The notes under the pieces are model-generated. The model worked only from the letters and a program-made list of their open reading frames with translations. It was not told the origin of the DNA and made no database searches. This document shows, piece after piece, positions 37,981-64,000 of a stretch of DNA of 64,000 bases; the stretch's first letter is position 1, and each line of letters opens with the position of its first letter. The stretch comes from a virus: positions 96,400 to 160,399 of the IMG/VR virus record IMGVR_UViG_3300023223_001361; one strand, 5' to 3'. Both the position numbers and the translations under genes were made by a program.

Positions 37981-38009
37981 TTGACTTTCTCTTCAGAATT
38001 TTGTATAAT
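37981..38009 (+). promoter_or_regulatory. sigma70-type promoter
   Basis: TTGACT (37981-37986), 17-nt spacer, TATAAT (38004-38009), 36 nt before the kinase start at 38045. It would also transcribe the downstream tmRNA. Confidence 0.85.
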
Positions 38010-38044: not shown

Positions 38045-38764
38045 ATGTCATTCAAAGCTATCGTTTTTTTGTTAGGTCATCAAGCTGGTGTGGGCAAAGA
38101 CACCCTCGGTAATCATCTTATTGGAAAAGAAGGTTTTATTAGATTTGCATTTGCTGATAAGTTGAAAGAATCTGTAGCGGATTTGTATGGTTTCACGAGA
38201 CAGCAAATGTATACTGATGAAGGAAAGAATATACCAGATGAAAGATATGAGAAATTTGGATGGTCGGAATGTGTACCTGGAGCTGAACAATTCCATGAGG
38301 CTAGATGGATTAAGAAAGGATATTATACGCCAAGAGAAATTCTTCAAGATTTTGGTCAAGAACAAAGAGCAAGATTTCCAGATATTTGGGCAGATTATGT
38401 TTTTCGACAAATCGAAGCTAGACTAGAATCTGATCTTTCAGATTTAGAAGATAGAGAGCCTGGAAGATTTGTTGTGACAGATTTTCGCTTTCCAAATGAA
38501 TTTACGGTAGCTAGGAAATATGCTGCTAAATTGAATATTAAGATTATACCTGTCAAAATTGTACGGCCTGGAAAGAGAGATGATTTTCCTGGAGTATTGA
38601 ATGTTAGTGAAACTGCTTTGAATGATTTCACACAATGGAAACATATTCTTCGGAATGATGGAAGTATTGATGATTTGTATACTAAATACAAATCTCTAGA
38701 TATAAATTATTTTGGGGGCGAAATGGGTTCGACGAGGGAAGTCAGAACTGAAGTAAGCGTGTAG
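38045..38764 (+). CDS. deoxynucleoside monophosphate kinase, 3' end inside tmRNA
   Basis: The 239-aa protein has a P-loop GHQAGVGKDT (residues 11-20), FAFADKLKE, DFGQEQRARFPDIWADYV and VTDFRFPNEF, as in phage dNMP kinases (T4 gp1 role). It phosphorylates dNMPs to dNDPs for replication. The last 16 or so codons (GGEMGSTREVRTEVSV) are the 5' part of the tmRNA read as protein, so the genes overlap by 51 nt. The natural C-terminus may have been lost or extended by tmRNA insertion. GGAG before ATG 38045 fixes the start. Confidence 0.85.
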   Translation: MSFKAIVFLLGHQAGVGKDTLGNHLIGKEGFIRFAFADKLKESVADLYGFTRQQMYTDEGKNIPDERYEKFGWSECVPGAEQFHEARWIKKGYYTPREILQDFGQEQRARFPDIWADYVFRQIEARLESDLSDLEDREPGRFVVTDFRFPNEFTVARKYAAKLNIKIIPVKIVRPGKRDDFPGVLNVSETALNDFTQWKHILRNDGSIDDLYTKYKSLDINYFGGEMGSTREVRTEVSV

Positions 38765-39090
38765 AGGATAGGTAGTAGGCCTCTTTAATCATCTGCCTAA
38801 AGCTTTAATCGCAGCTAATCAAGACGATTACGCAGTTTACGCCCTAGCGGCATAACCTGTTTCTCACTCCATAGAGAGTGAGCGATCGAAGAATGAGATG
38901 TCTATGGTAATTCTAAGATCGTCATCCACTATAGAATCGGAATTGTAAGTCTGGAGCAGTTCTTAAATAAACAGACAAAATTCTTGTTAGTTTGTTCGTT
39001 TGTAAACAAGAGTATCAAAACGAAATATACACGTAGAAATCTTTTGTAATGTTCTCTCGGACGCCGGTTCGATTCCGGCCGCTTCCACCA
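38714..39090 (+). ncRNA. ssrA: transfer-messenger RNA (tmRNA), one-piece
   Basis: The 377-nt RNA has the tmRNA hallmarks. GGGGGCG (38714-38720) pairs with CGCTTCC (39080-39086) before A-CCA. GGGTTCGACG lies near the 5' end. The T arm is GCCGG-TTCGATT-CCGGC. A pseudoknot after the tRNA part uses AGAGG/CCTCT and TAGGTAG/CTGCCTA. A resume frame at 38811 encodes AANQDDYAVYALAA then TAA (38853-38855), with the expected ALAA end. A 7-bp hairpin CTCACTC/GAGTGAG follows. It rescues stalled ribosomes and tags peptides for proteolysis with SmpB from the host. Confidence 0.93.
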
Positions 39091-39102: not shown

Positions 39103-39177
39103 GGTCCTTTGGTGAACTGGCTATCACACTACCCTGTCACGGTGGAGTAATGGGATCGATACCCGTAGGGACCGCCA
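39103..39177 (+). tRNA. tRNA-Asp (GTC), CCA encoded
   Basis: Acceptor GGTCCTT/AGGGACC, anticodon stem CTACC/GGTGG with loop CTGTCAC (anticodon GTC), T stem ATGGG/CCCGT, then G-CCA. It begins 12 nt after the tmRNA and is probably on the same transcript. Confidence 0.92.
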
Positions 39178-39195: not shown

Positions 39196-39564
39196 ATGAA
39201 ACATTATATTGTAGAAATTAGACAAAGTGAATTTGATGGGAGGAAAACTTTTTACTTCACTGATGCTAAGGAAGGCGAAATGTTTCCTTGTGATATAGTA
39301 TTATCTGACAAATTTGGCGATACTAGTATTTTTCCTTGTACTATAGCTTGTGCTAGATATGGTGGAACTTACGAAGGTGGGAAGTGGCTAGCATTTCCAA
39401 AAGATGCAAACAAGTTGCCTCAAGATTATAATAGTAGTGATATTTCTTGTGCTTGTTTTTGGGAAAATTATGATGAATTTGTTGGTAAAGGTGATTCACC
39501 GCAAGAAGCATATGATAATTTATTGAAACAATTGGATGAAAGAATAAAAATGGAGACTAAATAA
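39196..39564 (+). CDS. hypothetical protein
   Basis: The 122-aa protein (MKHYIVEIRQSEFDGRKTFY) has a compact beta-rich first half and an acidic helical end (GDSPQEAYDNLLKQLDERIK). It contains four cysteines in the middle (IFPCTIACARYGG, ISCACFW). The last segment resembles HicB-like domains but no partner is seen. Its stop overlaps the GroES start. Confidence 0.55.
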   Translation: MKHYIVEIRQSEFDGRKTFYFTDAKEGEMFPCDIVLSDKFGDTSIFPCTIACARYGGTYEGGKWLAFPKDANKLPQDYNSSDISCACFWENYDEFVGKGDSPQEAYDNLLKQLDERIKMETK

Positions 39565-39848
39565 TGGGACTTATACCTGTAGGGAAAAGAGTATTAGTGA
39601 GAGAAGCAGAAGCAAAAGAAACTACAGAAAGTGGACTTTTTCTTCCTGTGAATGCTCAACAGGAAATGATTACTCAAGGTGAGGTATTATGTGTGCCAGA
39701 AGTGGTCGAAAAAGATGTTGAAATACCTGTTGACAAAGGTGATAAGATATTGTATAATAGAAATGTAGCTGTTCCAGTTAAGGATTTAACAGGGGAACAA
39801 TTATTCACTGTAGACTTCGAGAGGATTCTAGTAAAGTTTAGAGACTGA
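39564..39848 (+). CDS. groES: GroES-like co-chaperonin
   Basis: The 94-aa protein matches Hsp10 length and layout: IPVGKRVLVREAEA at the N-terminus, TTESGLFLPVNAQQ as the mobile loop, GDKILYNRN and the C-terminal strand FERILVKF. It would cap host GroEL to fold large virion proteins, the role played in T4 by the unrelated gp31 (family knowledge). It lies between tRNA genes in the RNA island. Confidence 0.85.
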   Translation: MGLIPVGKRVLVREAEAKETTESGLFLPVNAQQEMITQGEVLCVPEVVEKDVEIPVDKGDKILYNRNVAVPVKDLTGEQLFTVDFERILVKFRD

Positions 39849-39888: not shown

Positions 39889-39963
39889 GGTGTGCGTAGC
39901 TTAATGGTAAAGCACCAGGCTGTGAACCTGGTGACACGAGTTCGATTCTCGTCGTACACCCCA
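39889..39963 (+). tRNA. tRNA-His (GTG), CCA encoded
   Basis: Acceptor GTGTGCG/CGTACAC with an extra 5' G opposite C73, the histidine identity pair. D stem GCTT/AAGC, anticodon stem CCAGG/CCTGG with loop CTGTGAA, T arm ACGAG-TTCGATT-CTCGT. All stems are complete. Confidence 0.95.
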
Positions 39964-39989: not shown

Positions 39990-40079
39990 CGGGGTGTAGG
40001 TCCGTAATCTGGTAGCGGTCTCGCTTTGGAAGCGAGTGGCATAATGCCCTTGGAGGTTCAAATCCTCTTGCCCCGACCA
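39990..40079 (+). tRNA. tRNA-Pro (TGG), unusual variable arm
   Basis: Acceptor CGGGGTG/TGCCCCG, anticodon stem CTCGC/GCGAG with loop TTTGGAA (TGG), T stem GGAGG/CCTCT with loop TTCAAAT, A-CCA. The variable region is 15 nt and contains a perfect GGCA-TAA-TGCC hairpin, not expected in proline tRNA; total 90 nt with CCA. Confidence 0.85.
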
Positions 40080-40695: not shown

Positions 40696-40845
40696 ATGAT
40701 TGATCAAAGAATTTTGCTTAAGTTGAATAAAAGAGATAAGAAAAAACTTGCCATCATAAAAGTAAGAACAGAAAAAGGTCTTCGGTTCCAACTTTATAGA
40801 TATGGAGGTGAGTGGAAAGAAATAATATGCGGCATGGAGAAGTAG
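40696..40845 (+). CDS. small basic protein, 3' end overlapping tRNA-Met
   Basis: A 49-aa frame (MIDQRILLKLNKRDKKKLAI) whose last 18 nt are the 5' end of tRNA-Met. Like the kinase/tmRNA pair, the coding end runs into an RNA gene. It may be real or chance; no family recognised. Confidence 0.4.
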   Translation: MIDQRILLKLNKRDKKKLAIIKVRTEKGLRFQLYRYGGEWKEIICGMEK

Positions 40846-40902
40846 TAACTCACCGTGTTCATAACTCGGAGATCGCAAGTGCAAATCTTGTTGCCGCTAC
40901 CA
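40828..40902 (+). tRNA. tRNA-Met (CAT), initiator-like first pair
   Basis: T1 and T72 are unpaired, then GCGGCA/TGCCGC. D arm GAG-9 nt-CTC, anticodon stem CCGTG/CTCGG with loop TTCATAA (CAT), T stem GCAAG/CTTGT with unusual loop TGCAAAT, A-CCA. The mismatched 1-72 pair is an initiator feature, but the GGG/CCC initiator anticodon stem is absent. A CAT tRNA could also be an Ile tRNA modified to lysidine. Confidence 0.8.
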
Positions 40903-40921
40903 AGTTATAATGGAGAATATT

Positions 40922-41170
40922 ATGATACCTTTAGGTAAAAAAGCGAAAGATAAAATAACTGGATTTGTTGGCATCATTATAGGTCGAGCACAATACTTGA
41001 CAGGTTGTGATCAATATGCATTAGTTGCAGAAGTAGTAGAAGCTACTTAAGGACCTGGTAAGTCTGAATGGTTTGATGAGGGCAGAGTAGAAGTTGTTGG
41101 TGCTGGGATAGAACCCTCAGAATTACAAGGGTCGATTGCAGGTGGTCCACAAAGAGATGCACCTGAGTAA
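40922..41170 (+). pseudogene. conserved-type phage gene interrupted by one TAA
   Basis: The frame encodes LGKKAKDKITGFVGIIIGRA, YLTGCDQYALVAEVVEAT, then TAA at 41048-41050. The same frame continues with GKSEWFDEGRVEVVGAGIEP and GGPQRDAPE to TAA 41170. The whole resembles a phage protein with KVxDxITGFxGI, YLTGCxQY, WxDExRLEV and GGPQRDAP blocks in one chain. No start codon follows the internal stop. It is either a nonsense-mutated gene, readthrough, or a 42-aa truncated product. Confidence 0.7.
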
Positions 41171-41187
41171 AGTTTGGAGAAAGAATT

Positions 41188-41385
41188 ATGAAAACACATA
41201 AATTAAAAACAGAACATGATTATAGTAATTTTGAAGTTTCTAATGCTATTCATGAGGTTTATGAATTACTTCAACATCTTAGAAAAAGTAATTCTTTATT
41301 CTTACAGATGTATTGTAAATCAGAAAGAATATTAGGTGATTTAGATAGAAGTAATGCTGAATATTCTTTCAAATCTAAGAAATAA
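41188..41385 (+). CDS. small hypothetical protein
   Basis: A 65-aa helical protein (MKTHKLKTEHDYSNFEVSNA) with GGAGAAAG upstream of the ATG. It contains a Tyr/Ser-rich C-terminal helix. No family recognised. Confidence 0.5.
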   Translation: MKTHKLKTEHDYSNFEVSNAIHEVYELLQHLRKSNSLFLQMYCKSERILGDLDRSNAEYSFKSKK

Positions 41386-41431
41386 TTTTATAATGAATAA
41401 AGAAACAGAAGTGTTTAATAAAGTTGTTAAC

Positions 41432-41459
41432 GAAGGTCCGATCCCTTCTCTCCCAGCCA
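41432..41459 (+). other. tRNA 3' half (fragment)
   Basis: A T arm GAAGG-TCCGATC-CCTTC followed by TCTCCCA-G-CCA is exactly a tRNA 3' end. No matching 5' acceptor strand (TGGGAGA) or anticodon arm precedes it. It is a remnant of a deleted tRNA or, less likely, half of a split one. Confidence 0.6.
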
Positions 41460-41461
41460 AC

Positions 41462-41556
41462 GGAAGTGTAAGCCGAAAGATTCTGGGTAGCGGTGGTCGC
41501 CTTGAAAGCGAAGTGTCTTAACCGACGTGTGGGTTCGAATCCTACCACTTCCGCCA
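41462..41556 (+). tRNA. tRNA-Ser (TGA), CCA encoded
   Basis: Acceptor GGAAGTG/CACTTCC, anticodon stem TCGC/GCGA with loop CTTGAAA (TGA), long class II variable arm, T loop TTCGAAT, G-CCA. Confidence 0.9.
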
Positions 41557-41559
41557 TTT

Positions 41560-41647
41560 GGAAACTTGGCAGAGCGGTTTATTGCGCTGGTTTGCTAAAT
41601 CAGTAAGTGTAAAAGCTTCATAGGTTCGAATCCTATAGTTTCCGCCA
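41560..41647 (+). tRNA. tRNA-Ser (GCT), CCA encoded
   Basis: Acceptor GGAAACT/AGTTTCC, anticodon stem CTGGT/ATCAG with loop TTGCTAA (GCT), long variable arm, T stem ATAGG/CCTAT with loop TTCGAAT, G-CCA. Three nt after the other serine tRNA. Confidence 0.92.
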
Positions 41648-41649
41648 TA

Positions 41650-41755
41650 TGCGAGTTGGTGAATAATCCAGCGAAAGGCTTTAGATCGAGTAGTGAAATC
41701 ACGCTGGTAGTTCATAACCAGTATAGAGTATAACGGGAAAACTCGCTCGCGACCA
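41650..41755 (+). ncRNA. tRNA-like RNA with CCA, noncanonical body
   Basis: TGCGAGT (41650-41656) pairs with GCTCGCG (41745-41751) before A-CCA. CTGGT/ACCAG encloses a CAT-containing 8-nt loop. CCAGCG (41669-41674) can instead pair with CGCTGG (41702-41707) around a GTGA/TCAC hairpin. The expected T arm is replaced by GAGT-11 nt-ACTC. At 106 nt it is too long and too irregular for a normal tRNA: a decayed tRNA-Met or a distinct tRNA-like RNA. Confidence 0.55.
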
Positions 41756-41830
41756 GTTTTAAGTTAGAGATGGAAAAATGAAAAGTAAAGTTAGAAATTC
41801 AAATACAGAAAGTGAACGAGAACCCAATAA

Positions 41831-41906
41831 GGGTCCATCGTCTACGCTGGTTAGGATACTTGGCTTTCACCCAGGAGAAGTGGGATCGTCGCCGCTGGAC
41901 CTACCA
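41831..41906 (+). tRNA. tRNA-Glu (TTC), CCA encoded
   Basis: Acceptor GGGTCCA/TGGACCT, anticodon stem CTTGG/CCAGG with loop CTTTCAC (TTC), A-CCA. The T arm is weak (GTGG/CCGC around GATCGTCG), so function may be reduced. Confidence 0.8.
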
Positions 41907-41940
41907 TTTTTTCTTATTATCGATACGCTGTATAATATAC

Positions 41941-42026
41941 GGGGTATCGCCAGAGTGGGAGCTGTGAGCGGTCTGTAAAATCGCTGTCTTAGGACTAGGA
42001 AGGTTCGATTCCTTCATGCCCCACCA
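41941..42026 (+). tRNA. tRNA-Tyr (GTA), CCA encoded
   Basis: Acceptor GGGGTAT/ATGCCCC, anticodon stem GCGGT/ATCGC with loop CTGTAAA (GTA), long variable arm, T stem GAAGG/CCTTC with loop TTCGATT, A-CCA. TATAAT at 41929-41934 upstream could be a -10 element. Confidence 0.93.
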
Positions 42027-42044
42027 ATTAAGATTTACTTTTTT

Positions 42045-42281
42045 ATGTTGATGATTAAAGTTCAAAATAGTTCCGAATTTTCTAAAGCAGTTGAGAAGAT
42101 AGTAAACGATACTGATTATAATTATCTTGAAGCTATTTTACAGTATGCCCAATCTAGAGGTATAGAACTTGAAAGTGTTCCAAAACTTTTAACCCAAAAA
42201 CTTAAAGTTGAATTAGAAAAAGAATCCTATGACATGAATCGTCTAGGGAAAAAACCAAGCTCTTTGCCTGTGGATGATTAG
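42045..42281 (+). CDS. gp33: late transcription coactivator gp33-like
   Basis: The 78-aa protein has FSKAVEKIVNDTDYNYLEAI, then YAQSRGIELESVPKLLTQKL and VELEKESYDMNRL. This matches the short marine T4-type gp33 pattern (T4 gp33 is 112 aa). gp33 links host RNA polymerase to the sliding clamp and, with sigma gp55, activates TATAAATA promoters. Position before gp59 and gp32 is the T4 gene order, which strengthens the call. Confidence 0.82.
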   Translation: MLMIKVQNSSEFSKAVEKIVNDTDYNYLEAILQYAQSRGIELESVPKLLTQKLKVELEKESYDMNRLGKKPSSLPVDD

Positions 42282-42483
42282 TATATTTTTGAAATTGCTC
42301 ATTACTGTTTTTCATTTAATGTTTTCTATTTGTTTTATGGTATGTTTGATGAGGCCTGGAAAACAACCAGAAAATAAGTTTGAACGTTTTTGTGAAAACT
42401 TTACTTTTACTGTTCTTTGCGGTGCTGGTATTTTGTGTATGGGATTATTGACTATTGGTTGGTGGAGGTGGTTAATTTCTTAA
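42274..42483 (+). CDS. small two-helix membrane protein
   Basis: The 69-aa protein has hydrophobic segments at about residues 3-21 (SIFLKLLITVFHLMFSICF) and 45-64 (FTVLCGAGILCMGLLTIGWW), separated by a short charged loop. It overlaps the gp33 stop by 8 nt and abuts gp59. Function unknown. Confidence 0.6.
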   Translation: MISIFLKLLITVFHLMFSICFMVCLMRPGKQPENKFERFCENFTFTVLCGAGILCMGLLTIGWWRWLIS

Positions 42484-43098
42484 ATGAGTAAGATAACTCC
42501 TTTTGAATGTTACAAAATGTATATTGCATTGAAGACTCATTTCAATAACGAGAAATATGATTACCAAAAATTAAATGGCAGAGTAAGAGCAAATAAAGAT
42601 TCATTTGAAAAAAGAAATGATAAAGCTTTTTTTTATCGTTTAGTAAAAAAATACGATGACAAGAAATTTTTAGAACATTTTTTTGTAGCTAATTTCGTTG
42701 AAAATAATGGTATGTGGATAGGTGATGCTGTTGAAGAAGATGCAAATAATGTCTATCTGGAATGGAGAAAGAAAACTGATAGTATTGGATATATGTTTCG
42801 AGAAGATATGAAAATTCTTCTTGGGAAGATATCTGGTAAAAAGGTAGCTGCGATTTATGAAGTTCTAGATGGTCAACATCCTTTATTTTTGAAATCCGTT
42901 CTGGAGAAAGATATTTCATTTGAGACATTTACGATATTACTTACTATCGTATCTGATAAGTTTAAGAATGAAGCCCTTAGCGATAGGATAGAAGATGAGA
43001 TAATTTGGCCGGAATATCGGAAAAAAGCCGAGAAATATCAACCATTTTTGGATATCGAATCGGTCCGATTTAGACAGATAATATACGATTTAACTTGA
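42484..43098 (+). CDS. gp59: helicase loader gp59-like
   Basis: The 204-aa protein (T4 gp59 is 217) begins ITPFECYKMYIALKTHFNNE, then YDYQKLNGRVRANKDSFEKR, AFFYRLVKKY and FFVANFVENNGMWIGD, all in gp59 order. It loads the gp41 helicase on gp32-coated forks. It lies between gp33 and gp32 as in T4. Confidence 0.88.
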   Translation: MSKITPFECYKMYIALKTHFNNEKYDYQKLNGRVRANKDSFEKRNDKAFFYRLVKKYDDKKFLEHFFVANFVENNGMWIGDAVEEDANNVYLEWRKKTDSIGYMFREDMKILLGKISGKKVAAIYEVLDGQHPLFLKSVLEKDISFETFTILLTIVSDKFKNEALSDRIEDEIIWPEYRKKAEKYQPFLDIESVRFRQIIYDLT

Positions 43099-43122
43099 CA
43101 AAAATCATAAATATGGTATAAT
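43095..43122 (+). promoter_or_regulatory. sigma70-type promoter for gp32
   Basis: TTGACA (43095-43100), 16-nt spacer, TATAAT (43117-43122). The leader to the gp32 start at 43200 is about 70 nt and AT-rich; gp32 of T4 is autoregulated at its leader, so control here is plausible. Confidence 0.8.
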
Positions 43123-43199
43123 ATTTGCATAAATTAATTCGTCATTTGTTTTTGTGAAATAGTCGAATACTAAAAATACACTGAATAAGGAAAAATACT

Positions 43200-44123
43200 A
43201 TGTCCAAGTCATTTAGCCAACTACGTAAAAACCGTAATAGTCGTCTGCAAGAATTAAATAAAGCAGTCGACGAAGAAAAAACACCCTCATATAAACAAAA
43301 CGATGATCGTTTTTGGAAGTTAACCAGAGATGATGCAGGGAATGGTTCTGCTCTTATTCGTTTTTTGGATGCCCCAAAAGATGAAGATTGGGCATGGGTT
43401 CGTTATTTTGATCATGGATTCCAAGGTCCTGGTGGATGGTTTATTGAGAAGTCTTTGACGACAATCGGTAAATCAGATCCGGTCAGTGAACTTAATCGTT
43501 CTTTATTTCAAACTGGAATCAAAGCTAATGAGGAGCAAGCTCGTGAGCAGAAAAGACGTTTACATTATGTTTCTAATATTCTTGTTATAAAGGATCCTAA
43601 GAATTCGGATAATGATGGTAAGGTTTTTCTTTTCCGATATGGAAAGAAAATCTTTGAATTGCTTCAAGGTGTAATGTCACCTGAAACTGATGAGCTAGAT
43701 CCAGATAATACTCCAGATGAAATTAATCCATTTTGTATGTGGGAAGGTGCGAATCTTAAACTTCGGGTTCGAATGGCTGATAAGTATCCAGCTTATGATA
43801 AGTCTTCTTTTGAAGATTGTTCTGCAATTTTTCCGAAAGATGATGCTCAATATGAAAAGCTTTGGGAAAGTCAACATTCACTTCAAGATTTAATTTCTGA
43901 AGATAAGTTTAAAACTTATGAACAGTTGCAAGCAAGACTTAATAGAGTTTTGGGAACTGGTCTTCCTGATGTTTCCAGGAATGTAAAAGCCGAAACTTCA
44001 ACTATTACTTCAGCAACCGTTGAAGAAGTTGAGTTAGATGATGCTGAAGATTTGGGTGATAGTGGTGATGAAACCGAGGCTGAAGGTCTTGAGTTTCTAG
44101 AAAAGTTAGCTGCTGATAGTTAA
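43200..44123 (+). CDS. gp32: single-stranded DNA-binding protein gp32-like
   Basis: The 307-aa protein (T4 gp32 is 301) has the basic N-terminal FSQLRKNRNSRLQELNKAVD for cooperativity and the core FWKLTRDDAGNGSALIRFLD. GGWFIEKSLTTIGK, LHYVSNILVIKDPKNSDNDG and KVFLFRYGKKIFELL follow, with a very acidic C-terminus (ELDDAEDLGDSGDETEAEG) for partner binding. It coats ssDNA during replication and recombination. Confidence 0.93.
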   Translation: MSKSFSQLRKNRNSRLQELNKAVDEEKTPSYKQNDDRFWKLTRDDAGNGSALIRFLDAPKDEDWAWVRYFDHGFQGPGGWFIEKSLTTIGKSDPVSELNRSLFQTGIKANEEQAREQKRRLHYVSNILVIKDPKNSDNDGKVFLFRYGKKIFELLQGVMSPETDELDPDNTPDEINPFCMWEGANLKLRVRMADKYPAYDKSSFEDCSAIFPKDDAQYEKLWESQHSLQDLISEDKFKTYEQLQARLNRVLGTGLPDVSRNVKAETSTITSATVEEVELDDAEDLGDSGDETEAEGLEFLEKLAADS

Positions 44124-55985: not shown

Positions 55986-57776
55986 ATGAGTAAGTTGCGG
56001 ATCACAGAGTTAGATTTCTTACAGATTAGAGATAATCTTAAAGATTTTTTACGAGGACAGGACGAATTTAAAGATTATGATTTTGAAGGTTCGGGTATGT
56101 CCGTACTTTTGGATATTTTGGCTTATAACACACATTACAATGCTTTTTATTTAAATCAAGTCGCTTCTGAGATGTTTTTAGATAGCGCAATTTTAAGAGA
56201 ATCTGTTGTTTCGAGAGCAAAGCATCTTACCTATACCCCACGATCTTCAAGAGCTCCAAATGCTAAACTCACCATTCAGTTTTTTCCGACTGCTTCGCCA
56301 CCTACTATTACTATTCCTTTTGATACAGAATTTAGTGCTATTGTTGATGGAGTAACTTATATTTTTAGAACAAATGATTCTGTTATTGTCGAACAAGATA
56401 CGAATGGTCTATACATTGCAGAAGATGTAGAAATTATAGAAGGTAAAAGGATTATCCAAACTTTTGTCGTTGATAAAAGCGAAGATCAAAGATTCCTATT
56501 AGATAATGATGGAATAGATACAACTACGATTAAAGTTAATGTTCAACCCTCACTAGCCAATACCACAAAAACGGCATATGTTTTAAATGAAGATATTAAT
56601 GTTCTTGATGGGGAATCAACTGTTTATTTTTTGCAAGAAGTAGAACTAGGTAAGTTTGAATTATTTTTCGGAGATGGTTTTATCGGTAGAGATCTTGTTG
56701 ATGGAGAAGTTATAACAGTTGAATATTTGGTAACAAATGGAACATTGGCAAATGCAGCAAGTGAATTTTCTGCAATTAGAAAGATTGCTGGTTTTAGTGG
56801 CACAACTTTGACCACAACTCAAAATGCCTTTGGTGGAGAAGATCCAGAAAGTATAGATTCTATTAAGCACTTAGCTCCTCTTAATTTTGAGGCTCAAGAT
56901 AGAGCTGTTACTAAAAATGATTATGAGACATTAATTAAAACTGATTTTCCAAATATTGAAGCTGTTCGAGTATTTGGTGGTGAAGATAATGATCCTCCAC
57001 AATTTGGTAGAGTATTTATCTCATTGAAACCGATTACCGGAGTTGTTCTTTCGACAAGAACTAAACAGATTATTACTAATAAAGTTGTTACAGATAGAAG
57101 TATTGTGGCTATTGAGCCTGTTTTAATAGATCCAGATTTTACTACAATTGCTATATCAAGTAAAGTAACTTATAGATCCGCAAACACAACAAAACCAGAA
57201 TCAGATCTTCGTAATGAAGTATTAACGAATATTTTAAATTTCGGTGATGAGAATTTAGATAAGTTTGATTCTCATTTTCGGTATACTGTTTTGACTGGAA
57301 TAATTGATGATACAGATATTTCTATTATTAATAATTTAACAACTATACAATTAAAGAAACAGTTTTCTCCAGTTATTAATGTCCCTACACAGTTCGTTTT
57401 ACAATATAATAATCAAATCGATAAAGGCGATTTCACAAATGCACTTCCCACACTTTCAAGTTCAGCTTTTACCATTCGTGGGTTTACGGCTTTCTTTACT
57501 GATGATGGTCAAGGTAATGTTAATGTCTTCCGCTTTGTTGGGACAGAAAGGAGAACTTTAATAGAAAATATTGGAACAATTGATTATGATACAGGCAAAG
57601 TTGTAATTAATAAGTTTGCTCCAGAAGATTTACCAGATGGAGTAACTACAGTTGAAGTTTTTGTTATTCCACAGGAAAATGATATTTTCCCTCTCCGTAA
57701 TCAGATTTTGATTCTTGAGGAGAAAGATGTTTCTGTTGAGATGATTGATGAAAGTAATCCAAGTTTAGACATATAA
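55986..57776 (+). CDS. gp6: baseplate wedge gp6-like
   Basis: The 596-aa protein (T4 gp6 is 660) starts LRITELDFLQIRDNLKDFLR, then FKDYDFEGSGMSVLLDILAY and NTHYNAFYLNQVASEMFLDS, the strongly conserved N-terminal part of gp6. The last third carries the beta domain (FVLQYNNQIDKGDFTNALPT). It forms the wedge ring that dimerises during contraction. Confidence 0.93.
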   Translation: MSKLRITELDFLQIRDNLKDFLRGQDEFKDYDFEGSGMSVLLDILAYNTHYNAFYLNQVASEMFLDSAILRESVVSRAKHLTYTPRSSRAPNAKLTIQFFPTASPPTITIPFDTEFSAIVDGVTYIFRTNDSVIVEQDTNGLYIAEDVEIIEGKRIIQTFVVDKSEDQRFLLDNDGIDTTTIKVNVQPSLANTTKTAYVLNEDINVLDGESTVYFLQEVELGKFELFFGDGFIGRDLVDGEVITVEYLVTNGTLANAASEFSAIRKIAGFSGTTLTTTQNAFGGEDPESIDSIKHLAPLNFEAQDRAVTKNDYETLIKTDFPNIEAVRVFGGEDNDPPQFGRVFISLKPITGVVLSTRTKQIITNKVVTDRSIVAIEPVLIDPDFTTIAISSKVTYRSANTTKPESDLRNEVLTNILNFGDENLDKFDSHFRYTVLTGIIDDTDISIINNLTTIQLKKQFSPVINVPTQFVLQYNNQIDKGDFTNALPTLSSSAFTIRGFTAFFTDDGQGNVNVFRFVGTERRTLIENIGTIDYDTGKVVINKFAPEDLPDGVTTVEVFVIPQENDIFPLRNQILILEEKDVSVEMIDESNPSLDI

Positions 57777-59873
57777 ATGGCTAATAGATTTTTAGATAGA
57801 CCGGGTGAGAAGTTATCCGAATTAATACAGAAGCAATTACCGAGTTTTGTTCGCCAAGACCATCCTAAGATAATTGCTTTTCTTGAAGCATATTATGAGT
57901 GGCTAGATCAACAGGCTCAACCAGTTGGCGGTGCAAAACGAATTCTATTAGAACAAGATATTGATTCTACTCTTGATGAATTTGTTGTCTTTTTCAAAAG
58001 AGAATTTCTTCCTCGGATCCCGGATCAAGCATTAGCCGATAAGCGAAAAATACTCAAAAATATTAAACAGTTTTATCGTGCTAGAGGAACCGAAAAATCA
58101 TTTAAGTTTTTATTTCGTATTCTTTTTGATTCTGATGTAGAGTTTCGTTTTCCCGGAAGAGATATGCTTCGTGCTTCAGATGGAAAGTGGATTAAAGATA
58201 CTTCTATCAAGGTTACTCCAGCAAATGGTGATACAGATCCCTATGATTTTGAAGGAAGGACCGTTCGTGGCCTAACATCTGGTGCCTTTGCTGTTGTTGA
58301 AGTTGTTCGAGCTAAAGAAATTACTGACGGCTTTTTTGTTCATGAGTTGTATTTAAATAGAGCAAGCTTGCGAGGAGTTTTTGAAGCTGGTGAAGAGATT
58401 GCAAATTTTGACTTAAATGTTCAAGGAGATCTTTTAGCTAATGTAGAATTTTTAGTTACTGATATCATACTAACCAATCCAGGTGATGGATATGCAATCG
58501 GGGATGTTATAACTATTGATTCTGTTGATAATCAGGGTGTTGAAGCTAGAGCTAGTGTTTTAGCTATTGATCCGACTGACTTGTCTGATCCATTAAATCC
58601 TACTGGAATCATAACAAAAATAGTTATTAATGATTTCGGTGCTGGTTATACTATTCCACCAATTGTAACTTTTCCGTCACCCATACCTCCCTTTGATGCT
58701 CTTCCTAGTAATACAGCTACAGGAATAGCGGTTATTGGAGGTATGACAGATTACCCAGGTTTCTTTTTGAATGCTGATGGTAAATTAAGTGATTTTAAAT
58801 TTTTACAAGATAGTTTTTTCTTTCAAAAGTTTTCTTATGTACTTATTGTTTCAGAATCTATTGACTTCTACAGAGATGTTGTAAAAGAATTACTTCATCC
58901 TGCTGGGTTAATCTTGTTTGGTCAATTTCAACACACCGATGAAATAGATGTTGGGGTTCAGGTTCCATTAAATGCTTCTGAAGTAACATTGAATATTATG
59001 ACAGAACTTGATGTTTCATTGCAGGGGATTATGACTTTCTTTGATTTGGATATTATATCTGATATACAAAGAGTTGGAAACTTTTTTAATATTGATAATA
59101 CAATAGAATTCCAAAACCCAAATATCATTTTTAGTTCAGATCCTGAGACTGCTAAATGTCTATCAAATTTTGCTAAACCTGGAATGGGAATACAGATATC
59201 AAATAATAGTGGTAATGATGGTTGTTATAATATCCTATCAACAGTTTATGATGTAGGAGCTGGTACAATTTCAATTATAGTTGATAGTTTTAGAGATTTT
59301 CTTCTTGATATTACAATGGCTGGTGGTGGAACAGGTGATTATGTTTACGGAGAAAGAGTATATCAAGGAACTAATAGATTGATTCCAGATGCTTTTGGAT
59401 ATGTAGATAACTGGGATCCAATTGCTGAAGTTTTGAAGATTAATACTTCTTTCGGCACATTTAATTTAGTAGATCCTATCATCGGCGATACTTTTGGAGC
59501 TTCTCATATTGCTGCTATCGTTGGAACTTCCACAACATTCAATCAAGGTCGTTTAGGATTTACTGAATTTCCTCATGCATTACCATTAGGTTTGAGTGTT
59601 CAAAGTTTAGAAAAGAATAAATTTGCTTATCTTCCCTCTGAACAAGATCCAAATCCACCTGTATCAACATTTGATAATCCACCTTTTGGTCCAGGTTCGC
59701 CTGTTCCTGGAGAAGATTCAACAGAGATGTTTGGAGTCAATTCTGGCTATTGGGATACCTTTGCTAATACGCAGATTGGTCATTTCGATAGTTTAATTAT
59801 TGGAGATGTTGAAGATAAGTCTTGGACACCTATAAATACTTCTGCGGCACCAGTTCTCAAAAGTACATTTTAA
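57777..59873 (+). CDS. baseplate wedge protein, gp7/P2 gpI-like candidate
   Basis: In this 698-aa protein the N-terminus reads QLPSFVRQDHPKIIAFLEAY, YEWLDQQ and KNIKQFYRARGTEKSFKFLF, then RILFDSDVEFRFPGRDMLRA. This is a segment found in large wedge proteins of marine T4-type phages and related to P2 gpI. Later parts are beta-rich. Its place directly after gp6 is that of gene 7. Product starts 0 nt after the gp6 stop. Confidence 0.75.
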   Translation: MANRFLDRPGEKLSELIQKQLPSFVRQDHPKIIAFLEAYYEWLDQQAQPVGGAKRILLEQDIDSTLDEFVVFFKREFLPRIPDQALADKRKILKNIKQFYRARGTEKSFKFLFRILFDSDVEFRFPGRDMLRASDGKWIKDTSIKVTPANGDTDPYDFEGRTVRGLTSGAFAVVEVVRAKEITDGFFVHELYLNRASLRGVFEAGEEIANFDLNVQGDLLANVEFLVTDIILTNPGDGYAIGDVITIDSVDNQGVEARASVLAIDPTDLSDPLNPTGIITKIVINDFGAGYTIPPIVTFPSPIPPFDALPSNTATGIAVIGGMTDYPGFFLNADGKLSDFKFLQDSFFFQKFSYVLIVSESIDFYRDVVKELLHPAGLILFGQFQHTDEIDVGVQVPLNASEVTLNIMTELDVSLQGIMTFFDLDIISDIQRVGNFFNIDNTIEFQNPNIIFSSDPETAKCLSNFAKPGMGIQISNNSGNDGCYNILSTVYDVGAGTISIIVDSFRDFLLDITMAGGGTGDYVYGERVYQGTNRLIPDAFGYVDNWDPIAEVLKINTSFGTFNLVDPIIGDTFGASHIAAIVGTSTTFNQGRLGFTEFPHALPLGLSVQSLEKNKFAYLPSEQDPNPPVSTFDNPPFGPGSPVPGEDSTEMFGVNSGYWDTFANTQIGHFDSLIIGDVEDKSWTPINTSAAPVLKSTF

Positions 59874-59880
59874 TAGGTCA

Positions 59881-59888
59881 TATAAATA
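59881..59888 (+). promoter_or_regulatory. T4-type late promoter for gp8
   Basis: TATAAATA exactly, 28 nt before the gp8-like gene at 59917. Confidence 0.7.
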
Positions 59889-59916
59889 ATACAAGGAAAC
59901 CAAAAGGGTATCAAGA

Positions 59917-61644
59917 ATGACTGCTATTGTTAAAAATAAATTTCGTTTATATAATGCGGATTGCTTTAAAAATAGAATTATTGATCCGCCTTTGACAGAA
60001 AATTTATATCTCTTCGTTGGTAAATCTTCCCCATGGCCTACTGTCGTTACTCCTCCATCTAGTGAAACAGCCCCACCACTTCCTCTTGATAGTGTTAAAG
60101 AAGAATATAGAGCGTGGCATGATATGCTTGCTCTCAAAAGAGTTAAATTGGCTGATGTTATTCATGTTATTCGGCGATATAATTGGGATGATACTGGAAA
60201 TACTCAATATATTCCATTTGATGATTGTGATGCTGAATTGTTTCTTCAGCCAACTACTCAAAGAGTAGCAGATGCATCTGCCGGTGGATATACTGCTGGT
60301 GCGTTTTATGTTGTTACTGATGAATTCAATGTATATAAGTGTCTTGGAAATGATACAGATCCAACTGGTAATCCAAATAGACTTTCTACAGATAAACCAA
60401 CTGGGACTGATGTTGATTCTTTCTTTGCTTCTGATGGCTATAAGTGGAAATATATGTATACTCTCCCACATGCAAATGTTTTAAAGTTTATGACTAATGA
60501 TTGGATGCCTGTTGAAACTTTTCTTATAGATCCTGCCCATGATCCAGAAAACTTTCAATTTGCTGTTCAGGGAAATGCAGTTGATGGCGGGGTAGAAGCA
60601 ATTGTAATTGAAAATGTCGGGGCAGGATATCCTGATACTTTTTCTGGAGTAGTTATTCAAGCAGTAACAGCAAGTACATTAACAATTGATCCTGCTACTC
60701 GACCTGGTGAAACTGATGTAGATAATTATTTTAATGACTCTACTATTTTGGTTAATTCTGGCGGCGGCTCTAATGGTGATCGGAAGATTGTAACTAACTA
60801 TGTTGGTGCAACTGGAGTTATGACTTTAGATAGTAGTTTTGCAGTTCTTCCTACTCCTTTTTCAGATACAATTGATAGTTTTCCAACAATTACAATTGTT
60901 GGCGACGGTACAGGATTAATTGGTACACCAGTTGTTATTCCTTCTTCAGGAGAAATTTCAAGTGTTGTTGTTCCAATTCCTCAACCTGGAGAAGAACCAT
61001 TCACACAAGCTACTGCTGCAATTAGTGGTTCTTATTCTGGTCTAGTTACTGTAAATGCCACTGCAAGAGTAATTATTTCACCAAAAGGTGGACACGGTTT
61101 TGATGCAATAAAAGAATTAGGTGGTCATAATATTATGGTAAATGTCCAATTAGAGTTCAATGAAGGTTCTGGTGATTTTCCAATTGCAAATGATTATCGT
61201 AAGATTGGTCTTGTGATCGATGTTGAGAATTTTGGTGGTGGTATTTCGGAAGAAGTTACTCTTACAGCTATGTCTGCTTTAAACTTAACTGGAGTAAATG
61301 GAACCTTTACGCCTGATGAAATTATTGATGTTAATGCTGGAGAAAAACAAGCAATAGTTGTTGAGTACGTTGAATTGACTTCAGGACCAGGTGGAACTGG
61401 AATTTTGAAGTTCTTTCAAGATTTAACAACTGGTTTTGTTGATTTTGCTGATACTGATATTGTTACTGGTTTAAGTAGTGGAGCTGCTGGTGTATCAACA
61501 GAAGTTCCTATCACTGCTCCAGGTGGTGTTATACCACCAGAAGTAGAGCATTTTGAAGGTGATATTCTTTATATTGAACAAAGACGGCCGATTATGAGAG
61601 CCATAGATCAGATAGAAGACATCAAAATCATTGCAGAATTTTAA
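59917..61644 (+). CDS. gp8: baseplate wedge gp8-like, enlarged
   Basis: The 575-aa protein (T4 gp8 is 334) has AIVKNKFRLYNADCFKNRII, ENLYLFVGKSSPWP, HVIRRYNWD and FYVVTDEFNVYKCLGND. GYKWKYMYTLPHANVLKF follows, which is the gp8 pattern. The middle and end hold extra beta domains (AIVIENVGAGYPDTFSGVVI, FTPDEIIDVNAGEKQA). AAGGAAACC lies upstream. It bridges wedge and peripheral proteins. Confidence 0.87.
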   Translation: MTAIVKNKFRLYNADCFKNRIIDPPLTENLYLFVGKSSPWPTVVTPPSSETAPPLPLDSVKEEYRAWHDMLALKRVKLADVIHVIRRYNWDDTGNTQYIPFDDCDAELFLQPTTQRVADASAGGYTAGAFYVVTDEFNVYKCLGNDTDPTGNPNRLSTDKPTGTDVDSFFASDGYKWKYMYTLPHANVLKFMTNDWMPVETFLIDPAHDPENFQFAVQGNAVDGGVEAIVIENVGAGYPDTFSGVVIQAVTASTLTIDPATRPGETDVDNYFNDSTILVNSGGGSNGDRKIVTNYVGATGVMTLDSSFAVLPTPFSDTIDSFPTITIVGDGTGLIGTPVVIPSSGEISSVVVPIPQPGEEPFTQATAAISGSYSGLVTVNATARVIISPKGGHGFDAIKELGGHNIMVNVQLEFNEGSGDFPIANDYRKIGLVIDVENFGGGISEEVTLTAMSALNLTGVNGTFTPDEIIDVNAGEKQAIVVEYVELTSGPGGTGILKFFQDLTTGFVDFADTDIVTGLSSGAAGVSTEVPITAPGGVIPPEVEHFEGDILYIEQRRPIMRAIDQIEDIKIIAEF

Positions 61645-61665
61645 TTAAAAGTAAAAGAGTTTAAT

Positions 61666-64000
61666 ATGCCAGCAATACCTACTGATATAGCACCTTATTT
61701 TGATGATTTTGATATCGATGATCTGTTTCATCGTATATTATTTCGTCCTAGTTTTCCGGTACAAGCTAGAGAACTAACACAAATTCAATCAATGCTTCAA
61801 GAACAATTCAAGAGAATTGGTACTCATTTGTTCAAAGATGGAGCGATGGTTATTCCAGGGTATATTACCTTTGATACTCGTTTTGCTTATGTAAAGGTAG
61901 ATTCAAATGTTGGAGGAATGGCTGAAGAGTCTTTTAGAGAAGAGTTTTTTGAAGGCAGACTTATTCGTAGTGCAACTTCTGGTTTGCTTGCTCAAGTAAT
62001 TACATCAACAGATCCAGATAATAATGGTCATGTAAAGTTATATATCAAATATATGAATCAGGGCTCTGCTGGTGAAATTGTATTTGCTGAAAATGAAACA
62101 TTAACTGCCAAAAATGAAGGTGATGTTGTTCCTACTTTTACAGGCGAAGATGCTCTAGTTATCCCAAATGATTCTCCCGGACCTGGTGATTTGCCAACTG
62201 GTATTGGAACTTCTGCTGTTGTTCGAGAAGGTATTTATTTTGCTAGGGGAATTTTTATTCTAGTAGAAGAACAACTTATTATCGTTTCGGAAGAATCCGA
62301 TACTCCTAGTGTTCGAATTGGACTTAATATTGTTGAGAGCGTGGTTATTCCAGAAGAAGATACTCAACTCAATGATAATGCTCAAGGCAGTCCAAATTTT
62401 GGCGCGCCTGGAGCTCATAGATTAAAAATAGAACTTACTTTAGTTTCAAAAGCTCTTGGAACAGAAGACGATGATGATTTTATTGAACTTCTTCGTTTAC
62501 AAAATGGTCTTGCTCAAAGAATTGTACAATTTACCGATTATAATATTCTTCTTGATACACTAGCTCGCCGAACTTCTGATGAATCGGGTGATTATTCAGT
62601 AAGACCTTGGAAGATTGATGTTCGAGAATACTTTAATGATGGAACAAATAATGGTGTTTTTACCGAAGAAGATTTAGAATTTGATGTTTCATCTGAAGCC
62701 GAACAGTTTTCTGTTGATGTTTTAGATGGTAATGCAGATTCCCATGCTTCTCCAGTGAATCCAGGAAAGTTTCGTCCGGGAACAGATCCCGTAGCATTTC
62801 CTGCTGATCCATTTAATCTTTTAAATTTGATGCAGGCTAAGTATGCTGTATTTTTAGAAGCTGGTAAGGGTTTCATAAGAGGTTTTGAAGTTCTTACTAT
62901 TGCTAAGACTTTATTAGTTGGTAGTAAAGCTAGAGATTTTGCATTTGAAAATAATGCATCAATTTCTGCTCCATTAGGAAATTATGTTCGTGTTAGAAAT
63001 ATTCACGGTATTCCAGATATTGAAAATTTTAAAACTTTAGATATGTATGATGCTCCTTTGGATGATACATCTTTAGCCACCAGAGCTAATACAAACGGAA
63101 ATAAGATTGGAACCTGTCGTGTTAGATCTATAGAATTTCATAGTGGTGATGACGCTGGTGTTCCTTTGAATTTTTCTAATCCAACTTCTGGAACTGGTGT
63201 ATATAGACTTTACCTCTATGACGTTCAAACAGATCCAGGAAAAGATTTTTCTCTTGTGAAATCTTTTCATCATCCTTCTGTAGCTGGATCTCCAGGCGGT
63301 CAAACATTTACTTGTGATGTTGATAATGTTATTATTCCACTTTTAGGTCAAATTACATTAAATGGGACAACTTCTGCTACTGGGGACGCTGGCACACGTT
63401 GGTTTAGCAGAGATAGTCAAAGATTAGCGGCTGATGATTGGCTGTTTGTTGTAACAACTCCTGCTACTGGTGCAGGAGAATTCGTAAAAGTTGCTTTTGA
63501 TCCAATTGCTGATAATGCATTAACTTTGGTTTCTGGTATCACTGGTCATCCAATTCCATCTGTTACTAATGCAAATTTTTCTTTAGCTGCTGCTTTATTA
63601 GAAGATATTGGAAACAATAATTTACTTTATCCACTTCCCCAATCCTTAATTAGAAAAATTAGAGATCAAAGTGATCTTATTGATACAAATTATCTTGTTA
63701 GAAGATTTGAAGCCAAGAAAACTGCTGATGCTGCCGCAGGAACAAGTGTAACCTTTACTTCCGCAGCCAATGAAACCTTTGATTCGTTTTCAAAATCTAG
63801 TTATATTTTATTCCATGAAGATGGCATTGTAATTCCGGTAACATCTAGTAACTTTGAAGTAACGGGACCAAATAGTATTCGATTTAGGGATCTATCTGGT
63901 CTTGGTGTTGGTGTTGGAGATGAAATTGCTGCTGTAATAACAATTAGAAAGAATGAAACTGCTGCTGAAGAAAAAGGAAAAGATTTAGAAACGAATCAAA
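61666..64000 (+). CDS. DUF4815-type virion protein (runs off the window)
   Basis: The frame is open from ATG 61666 to the last base, at least 778 codons with no stop. FHRILFRPSFPVQARELTQI, QSMLQEQFKRIGTHLFKDGA and VIPGYITFD match the DUF4815 N-terminal domain of large T4-type virion proteins in the baseplate/fibre region. Beta-rich domains follow, including repeats with GSA/EFVKVAF. AAAAGAG precedes the start. The C-terminus and any fibre tip are beyond the edge. Confidence 0.85.
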   Translation, partial: MPAIPTDIAPYFDDFDIDDLFHRILFRPSFPVQARELTQIQSMLQEQFKRIGTHLFKDGAMVIPGYITFDTRFAYVKVDSNVGGMAEESFREEFFEGRLIRSATSGLLAQVITSTDPDNNGHVKLYIKYMNQGSAGEIVFAENETLTAKNEGDVVPTFTGEDALVIPNDSPGPGDLPTGIGTSAVVREGIYFARGIFILVEEQLIIVSEESDTPSVRIGLNIVESVVIPEEDTQLNDNAQGSPNFGAPGAHRLKIELTLVSKALGTEDDDDFIELLRLQNGLAQRIVQFTDYNILLDTLARRTSDESGDYSVRPWKIDVREYFNDGTNNGVFTEEDLEFDVSSEAEQFSVDVLDGNADSHASPVNPGKFRPGTDPVAFPADPFNLLNLMQAKYAVFLEAGKGFIRGFEVLTIAKTLLVGSKARDFAFENNASISAPLGNYVRVRNIHGIPDIENFKTLDMYDAPLDDTSLATRANTNGNKIGTCRVRSIEFHSGDDAGVPLNFSNPTSGTGVYRLYLYDVQTDPGKDFSLVKSFHHPSVAGSPGGQTFTCDVDNVIIPLLGQITLNGTTSATGDAGTRWFSRDSQRLAADDWLFVVTTPATGAGEFVKVAFDPIADNALTLVSGITGHPIPSVTNANFSLAAALLEDIGNNNLLYPLPQSLIRKIRDQSDLIDTNYLVRRFEAKKTADAAAGTSVTFTSAANETFDSFSKSSYILFHEDGIVIPVTSSNFEVTGPNSIRFRDLSGLGVGVGDEIAAVITIRKNETAAEEKGKDLETNQ

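Follow-up and report, generated by a model that had tools for sequence, protein, structure and literature searches.

A phage-encoded one-piece tmRNA with its own tag peptide in a T4-superfamily virus record

Introduction

Genes for tmRNA are known from phages. The mycobacteriophages Bxz1 and Wildcat with their relatives and Bacillus phage G are listed as carriers (PMC4131195), and a survey recorded tmRNA in 402 of 18,146 phage genomes, a share stated as 2.3% (PMC9004378). Within the T4 superfamily, Methylophilales phage Melnitz carries a two-piece tmRNA under a predicted glutamine riboswitch (PMC9004378). Several properties of the molecule are well described: a G-U pair in the acceptor stem is a determinant for alanyl-tRNA synthetase, RNase P is the 5' processing enzyme, and the ALAA end of the tag is read by ClpX and ClpA (PMC3985003). 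The main determinant of frame choice is A86 (PMC2481249).

We analysed the final 64 kb (hereafter the window) of a virus record that is 160,399 bases long. It holds an unpermuted tmRNA gene whose 5' end lies inside a phage gene.

Identification of the tmRNA gene

ARAGORN reports a one-piece tmRNA on the plus strand, with the tag AANQDDYAVYALAA followed by a stop. Both the coordinates and the tag match exactly those proposed in an earlier sequence-only reading of the window.

38714..39090, plus strand: tmRNA (ssrA) gene, from the mature G1 to the encoded CCA (ARAGORN; RF00023).
38811..38855, plus strand: tag reading frame, from the GCA resume codon to the TAA stop, encoding AANQDDYAVYALAA (ARAGORN coding part 98-142).

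The Rfam model RF00023 matches 38714-39090 with 148.4 bits (E 2.5e-58) over the full model, 1-374, and its ends are those of ARAGORN. The curated cut-off of RF00023 is 47 bits, and the covariance-model check that had been suggested for this locus is therefore well past its threshold. End-to-end agreement between ARAGORN and RF00023 excludes chance as the source of the match. Both give the order 5'-TLD-tag-TLD-3', and the gene is therefore one-piece. A permuted two-piece form was rejected, as the permuted-tmRNA model RF04321 (cut-off 47 bits) scores only 36.2 and 19.9 bits in the tmRNA region; since ARAGORN, RF00023 and RF04321 all indicate an unpermuted gene, the alphaproteobacterial two-piece class is ruled out too. 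Together with the phage genes that surround the locus, these sequence comparisons confirm 38714-39090 as a real, complete, phage-encoded one-piece tmRNA (RF00023, ssrA/10Sa RNA), and on these three points the sequence-only reading was right.

Structural elements of the tmRNA

As read from the sequence, the tmRNA has all the elements known to be needed. In the acceptor stem, GGGGGCG is paired to CGCTTCC, G3.U70 being one of the pairs; A73 and the CCA that follows it are both encoded in the gene. The T arm is CGCCGGTTCGATTCCGGC, and the signature GGGTTCGACG is present. The resume codon GCA lies at 38811 and the tag stop TAA at 38853-38855. Upstream of the resume codon, the A at 38807 (-4 from GCA) is the equivalent of E. 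coli A86 and the T at 38806 (-5 from GCA) that of U85. Stem-pair sequences were located for four pseudoknots, of which the third and fourth were read by hand and are without covariation support.

38763..38799, plus strand: pseudoknot 1, AGAGG/CCUCU and UAGGUAG/CUGCCUA (complementary stretches).
38890..38935, plus strand: pseudoknot 2, AGAAU/AUUCU and UCUAUGGU/ACUAUAGA (automatic scan).
38940..38976, plus strand: pseudoknot 3, GAAUUG/CAGUUC and GUCUG/CAGAC (not selected by the automatic scan).
38981..39024, plus strand: pseudoknot 4, UUCUUGUU/AACAAGAG and UUCGUUU/AAACGAA (the automatic scan chose an overlapping alternative).

A total of pseudoknot base pairs 3' of the tag at least as large as that observed occurred in 1.7% of 300 shuffles. 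The folding energy of the tmRNA is ordinary (z -1.5), as expected from a predictor that does not handle pseudoknots. Compared with the standard one-piece bacterial tmRNA (RF00023), the molecule is alike in the order of its parts, the TLD with G3.U70 and A73, the resume-codon context, the four pseudoknots and the ALAA end; it differs in being encoded by a phage, in its tag AANQDDYAVYALAA and in the lack of smpB from the record.

Genomic context

The record contains T4-superfamily genes for tail sheath, portal, major head protein, baseplate wedge, gp59 and gp32, as well as a B-family DNA polymerase, a DnaB-like helicase and a clamp-loader ATPase. The baseplate wedge protein is matched best by those of Pelagibacter phage HTVC008M and Methylophilales phage Melnitz; the amino acid identity is about 40%, which places the phage far from all isolates compared. 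The tmRNA starts within the 3' end of a dNMP kinase gene, and a tRNA-Asp, a GroES gene, an HNH endonuclease and further tRNA genes are found on its 3' side.

37981..38009, plus strand: sigma70-like promoter TTGACT-17-TATAAT, 5' of the kinase gene (by consensus match only, 11/12).
38045..38764, plus strand: dNMP kinase gene, T4 gp1-like (phrog_139, E 2.4e-36; Pfam DNMK above cut-off).
38701..38708, plus strand: TATAAATT, 13 nt 5' of the tmRNA G1 and differing at one position from the T4 late promoter octamer.
39103..39177, plus strand: tRNA-Asp(GTC), 12 nt 3' of the tmRNA and first of the tRNA cluster (ARAGORN; Rfam).
39564-39848: GroES-type co-chaperonin gene, between the tmRNA and a tRNA-His gene (Cpn10, E 1.6e-15).

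The most likely start of the kinase gene is the ATG at 38045, which has a GGAG upstream, and the last 51 nt of the gene, including the TAG stop (38762-38764), are inside the tmRNA. This overlap and the phage genes on both sides (tRNAs, GroES, gp59, gp32) exclude a host fragment at a contig end; judged by this gene order, the tmRNA is not host contamination. The TTGACT-17-TATAAT promoter is likely to be the start of a kinase-tmRNA-tRNA transcript. A separate late start for the tmRNA at TATAAATT is possible, the octamer being a weak candidate, and octamers of this type are not enriched genome-wide. In the whole record the most enriched 7-mer 5-60 nt upstream of ORF starts is ATAAATA (9/152, about 6-fold), as expected of T4-type late promoters. 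A further sigma70-like promoter, matching the consensus at 12/12 positions, lies at 39730 inside the GroES-type gene.

The region downstream also contains tRNA-like genes missed by ARAGORN. By eye, those at about 39992-40078, 41459-41556 and 41831-41905 are Pro(TGG), Ser(TGA) and Glu(TTC); each ends in CCA, and their Rfam matches are sub-threshold. Another tRNA-like stretch, 41650-41757, has CAT in a loop, a degenerate T arm and the end CGCGACCA, and is perhaps a decaying tRNA.

The tag peptide and the host

Phage tmRNAs as a kind are known; what is new here is the tag AANQDDYAVYALAA, seen in no other sequence searched. A pattern scan of IMG/VR gave no match to its exact core. A scan of about 85,000 GTDB species genomes for DYAxYALAA followed by a stop gave four matches only, all of them alphaproteobacterial two-piece tmRNAs with AKSDYAEYALAA or AKRDYAEYALAA, and these four are the only bacterial matches to come from the nearest-tag search that the sequence-only reading had recommended. 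They bear on the claim, made from the one-piece form, that the gene is not of alphaproteobacterial origin. The claim stands in part: the one-piece form argues for it, as does the phage's tRNA-His (39889-39963), which has an encoded G-1 and C73 and is of the ordinary bacterial type, whereas the nearest bacterial tags (four of four) are alphaproteobacterial. G-1 has been lost from tRNA-His in one alphaproteobacterial group; the G-1/C73 tRNA-His of the phage, unlike that group, may serve as a weak clue to the host. Reading an alphaproteobacterial host from the tag was rejected because it conflicts with both the one-piece form and the G-1:C73 tRNA-His. Most likely, the likeness to alphaproteobacterial tags reflects convergence on a Clp degradation signal. 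The sequence-only reading had further suggested that the tmRNA may redirect stalled host translation. The DDYAVY core alone does not imply a redirected function, since the C-terminal ALAA read by ClpX and ClpA is intact.

Comparison with other phage tmRNAs

Neither the tmRNA nor the surrounding 24 kb has a DNA match among INPHARED phages at 1e-5. In IMG/VR, no close relatives of the kinase were found and a pattern scan for the exact tmRNA 5' end gave no match. None of 100 relatives' records picked via the baseplate wedge and major head protein, most of them fragments, contains a tmRNA above cut-off. A looser 5' pattern occurs in nine viral contigs, and ARAGORN calls a tmRNA in seven of these.

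Complete one-piece tmRNAs borne by phages, as here, are found in Streptomyces phage Patelgo (L206), where the tmRNA is annotated and is one-piece by ARAGORN, and in the viral contigs L192, L195 and L198, where it is confirmed by Rfam and the tags are unlike the one described here. Those of Patelgo, L192 and L195 also resemble the present tmRNA in lying near tRNA genes. The one-piece tmRNAs of other large phages differ from it in their tags (ANSNFALAA, ANDYYVPAQAAA, ADDYYTEVALAA and ANNNYYYEEVRLAA) and show little DNA similarity to it beyond both ends.

Permuted tmRNAs are present in Stenotrophomonas phage DLP6 (L200; tag ANDDSFAPMAIAA) and in Xanthomonas phages XacN1, X1 and Rb1. DLP6 and Melnitz parallel the present phage in two respects: both are T4-superfamily phages with a virus-encoded tmRNA, and both match the baseplate protein of this record. 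They differ from it in that their tmRNA genes are circularly permuted. The T4 superfamily thus gains a complete one-piece tmRNA, the two relatives checked (DLP6 and Melnitz) having the permuted form, and this difference suggests that phages of the superfamily gained tmRNAs more than once, by separate acquisitions. The sequence-only reading described phage tmRNAs as known but rare; the former is correct and the latter somewhat overstated, given the 402 of 18,146 genomes cited above and the several more found here.

Two neighbourhoods of permuted tmRNAs drew our attention. In XacN1, a GOLLD RNA (L201:3811-4224; 227 bits) is close to the permuted tmRNA and to tRNA genes. In Tunturiibacter phage Tunturi_4, a release factor gene with an RF-1 domain (L203:2119-2466) lies just before the permuted tmRNA, so that two possible ribosome-rescue functions adjoin.

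Proposed function and alternative explanations

SmpB, SspB and release-factor-type rescue proteins were not detected in the 160-kb record, which is linear and may be a fragment, and the control genomes were positive in each case. As the record has no SmpB, we infer that SmpB, EF-Tu and alanyl-tRNA synthetase of the host serve the phage tmRNA. The locus very probably encodes a working tmRNA that is charged by the host and acts with host SmpB to recycle stalled ribosomes. It would be transcribed with the kinase and tRNA genes; RNase P would generate its 5' end, and host alanyl-tRNA synthetase would charge it. Host SmpB and EF-Tu would then carry it to stalled ribosomes, where it would add Ala-AANQDDYAVYALAA and release the ribosome, and the tagged product would become a target of host ClpXP or ClpAP. 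The phage would gain from a larger pool of free ribosomes while it infects, a time of broken mRNAs and of attack on tRNAs. The tRNA genes, RNA ligase and polynucleotide kinase/phosphatase of the phage speak for this reading, as does the finding that host tmRNA and RNase P RNA persist in T4 infection (PMC9697503).

Because of the overlap with the kinase gene, one regulatory idea can be put to a direct test. In addition to its part in general rescue, the tmRNA might, on being matured by RNase P, strip the kinase mRNA of its stop codon, so that the kinase undergoes tagging and degradation, or is produced only at low tmRNA levels. The kinase frame is free of stops up to the TAG that lies 51 nt inside the tmRNA. 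The predicted RNase P cut before G1 falls on a kinase codon boundary and leaves exactly 223 codons, although a cut at a codon boundary is expected in one case out of three by chance. The conserved core motifs of the kinase extend to about residue 221 in the long frame, so the core is complete before the overlap; short gene overlaps, however, are usual in compact phage genomes. A good promoter lies upstream of the kinase gene and no terminator was found between it and the tmRNA, but the late-promoter-like octamer 13 nt before G1 could drive a separate tmRNA transcript. E. coli arfA provides a precedent in which cutting of the RNA removes the stop codon and the product becomes a tmRNA substrate (PMC3985003); there RNase III cuts the mRNA, whereas here the cut would be the RNase P maturation of the tmRNA itself. 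No clear equivalent of the overlap was apparent in the small set of further one-piece tmRNAs sampled on viral contigs. On balance, we regard this coupling as unlikely. A fuller version, a self-acting kinase-tmRNA switch through which the phage could lower an early enzyme, the kinase, as tmRNA accumulates, strikes us as quite unlikely. A step beyond it would be that the phage's own unusual Clp-type AAA+/M41 protease also degrades tagged proteins.

Alternatively, as the sequence-only reading had suggested, the phage tmRNA might replace a host tmRNA that has been cut, whether by anti-phage nucleases of the host or by the phage, in a defence-escape role such as has been proposed for phage tRNAs. 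The nearby phage tRNA genes, and the RNA ligase and polynucleotide kinase/phosphatase (PNKP phosphatase domain) also encoded in the record, suggest that RNA damage is met in infection. We know of no nuclease aimed at tmRNA in the setting of phage infection. In E. coli infected with T4, moreover, the tmRNA and the RNase P RNA of the host stay intact (PMC9697503). Replacement is, in our judgement, improbable.

A passenger origin, in which a host ssrA gene was acquired by chance and is kept without benefit or is decaying, appears very unlikely. Mobile elements often integrate at host ssrA genes (PMC11915505, PMC9004378), and the lack of a similar tmRNA in the relatives' records searched would allow a lineage-specific gain. 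Against this, the functional elements are all intact, yet the tag is unlike every bacterial tag matched; a search of the record for an integrase was negative; and the gene is embedded between phage genes, one of which it overlaps. Misassembly of host or prophage DNA into the phage contig is hardly credible: no close phage relative confirms the arrangement, but the tmRNA overlaps the phage dNMP kinase gene and T4-type genes lie on both sides in one continuous 160-kb record.

Other features of the record

Outside the window, at 40765-42741 of the record (L103:765-2741), a 658-aa protein has an M41 zinc peptidase (HEAGH) fused not to the usual FtsH ATPase but to an AAA+ part of Clp type (ClpB_D2-small; GMTGVGKT as its Walker A motif). 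INPHARED matched the M41 half only and IMG/VR gave no relatives, and the fusion is possibly a new protease architecture. It is directly followed by a gene for a DruA-domain protein at 42725-44008 (L103:2725-4008; PF14236, E 1.5e-22). At 57433-61793 of the record (L103:17433 to L104:1793) the B-family DNA polymerase gene is apparently split into a 493-aa N-terminal part and a 366-aa later part; the roughly 1.8 kb between them hold a calcineurin-like phosphoesterase gene and a tRNA-Asn.
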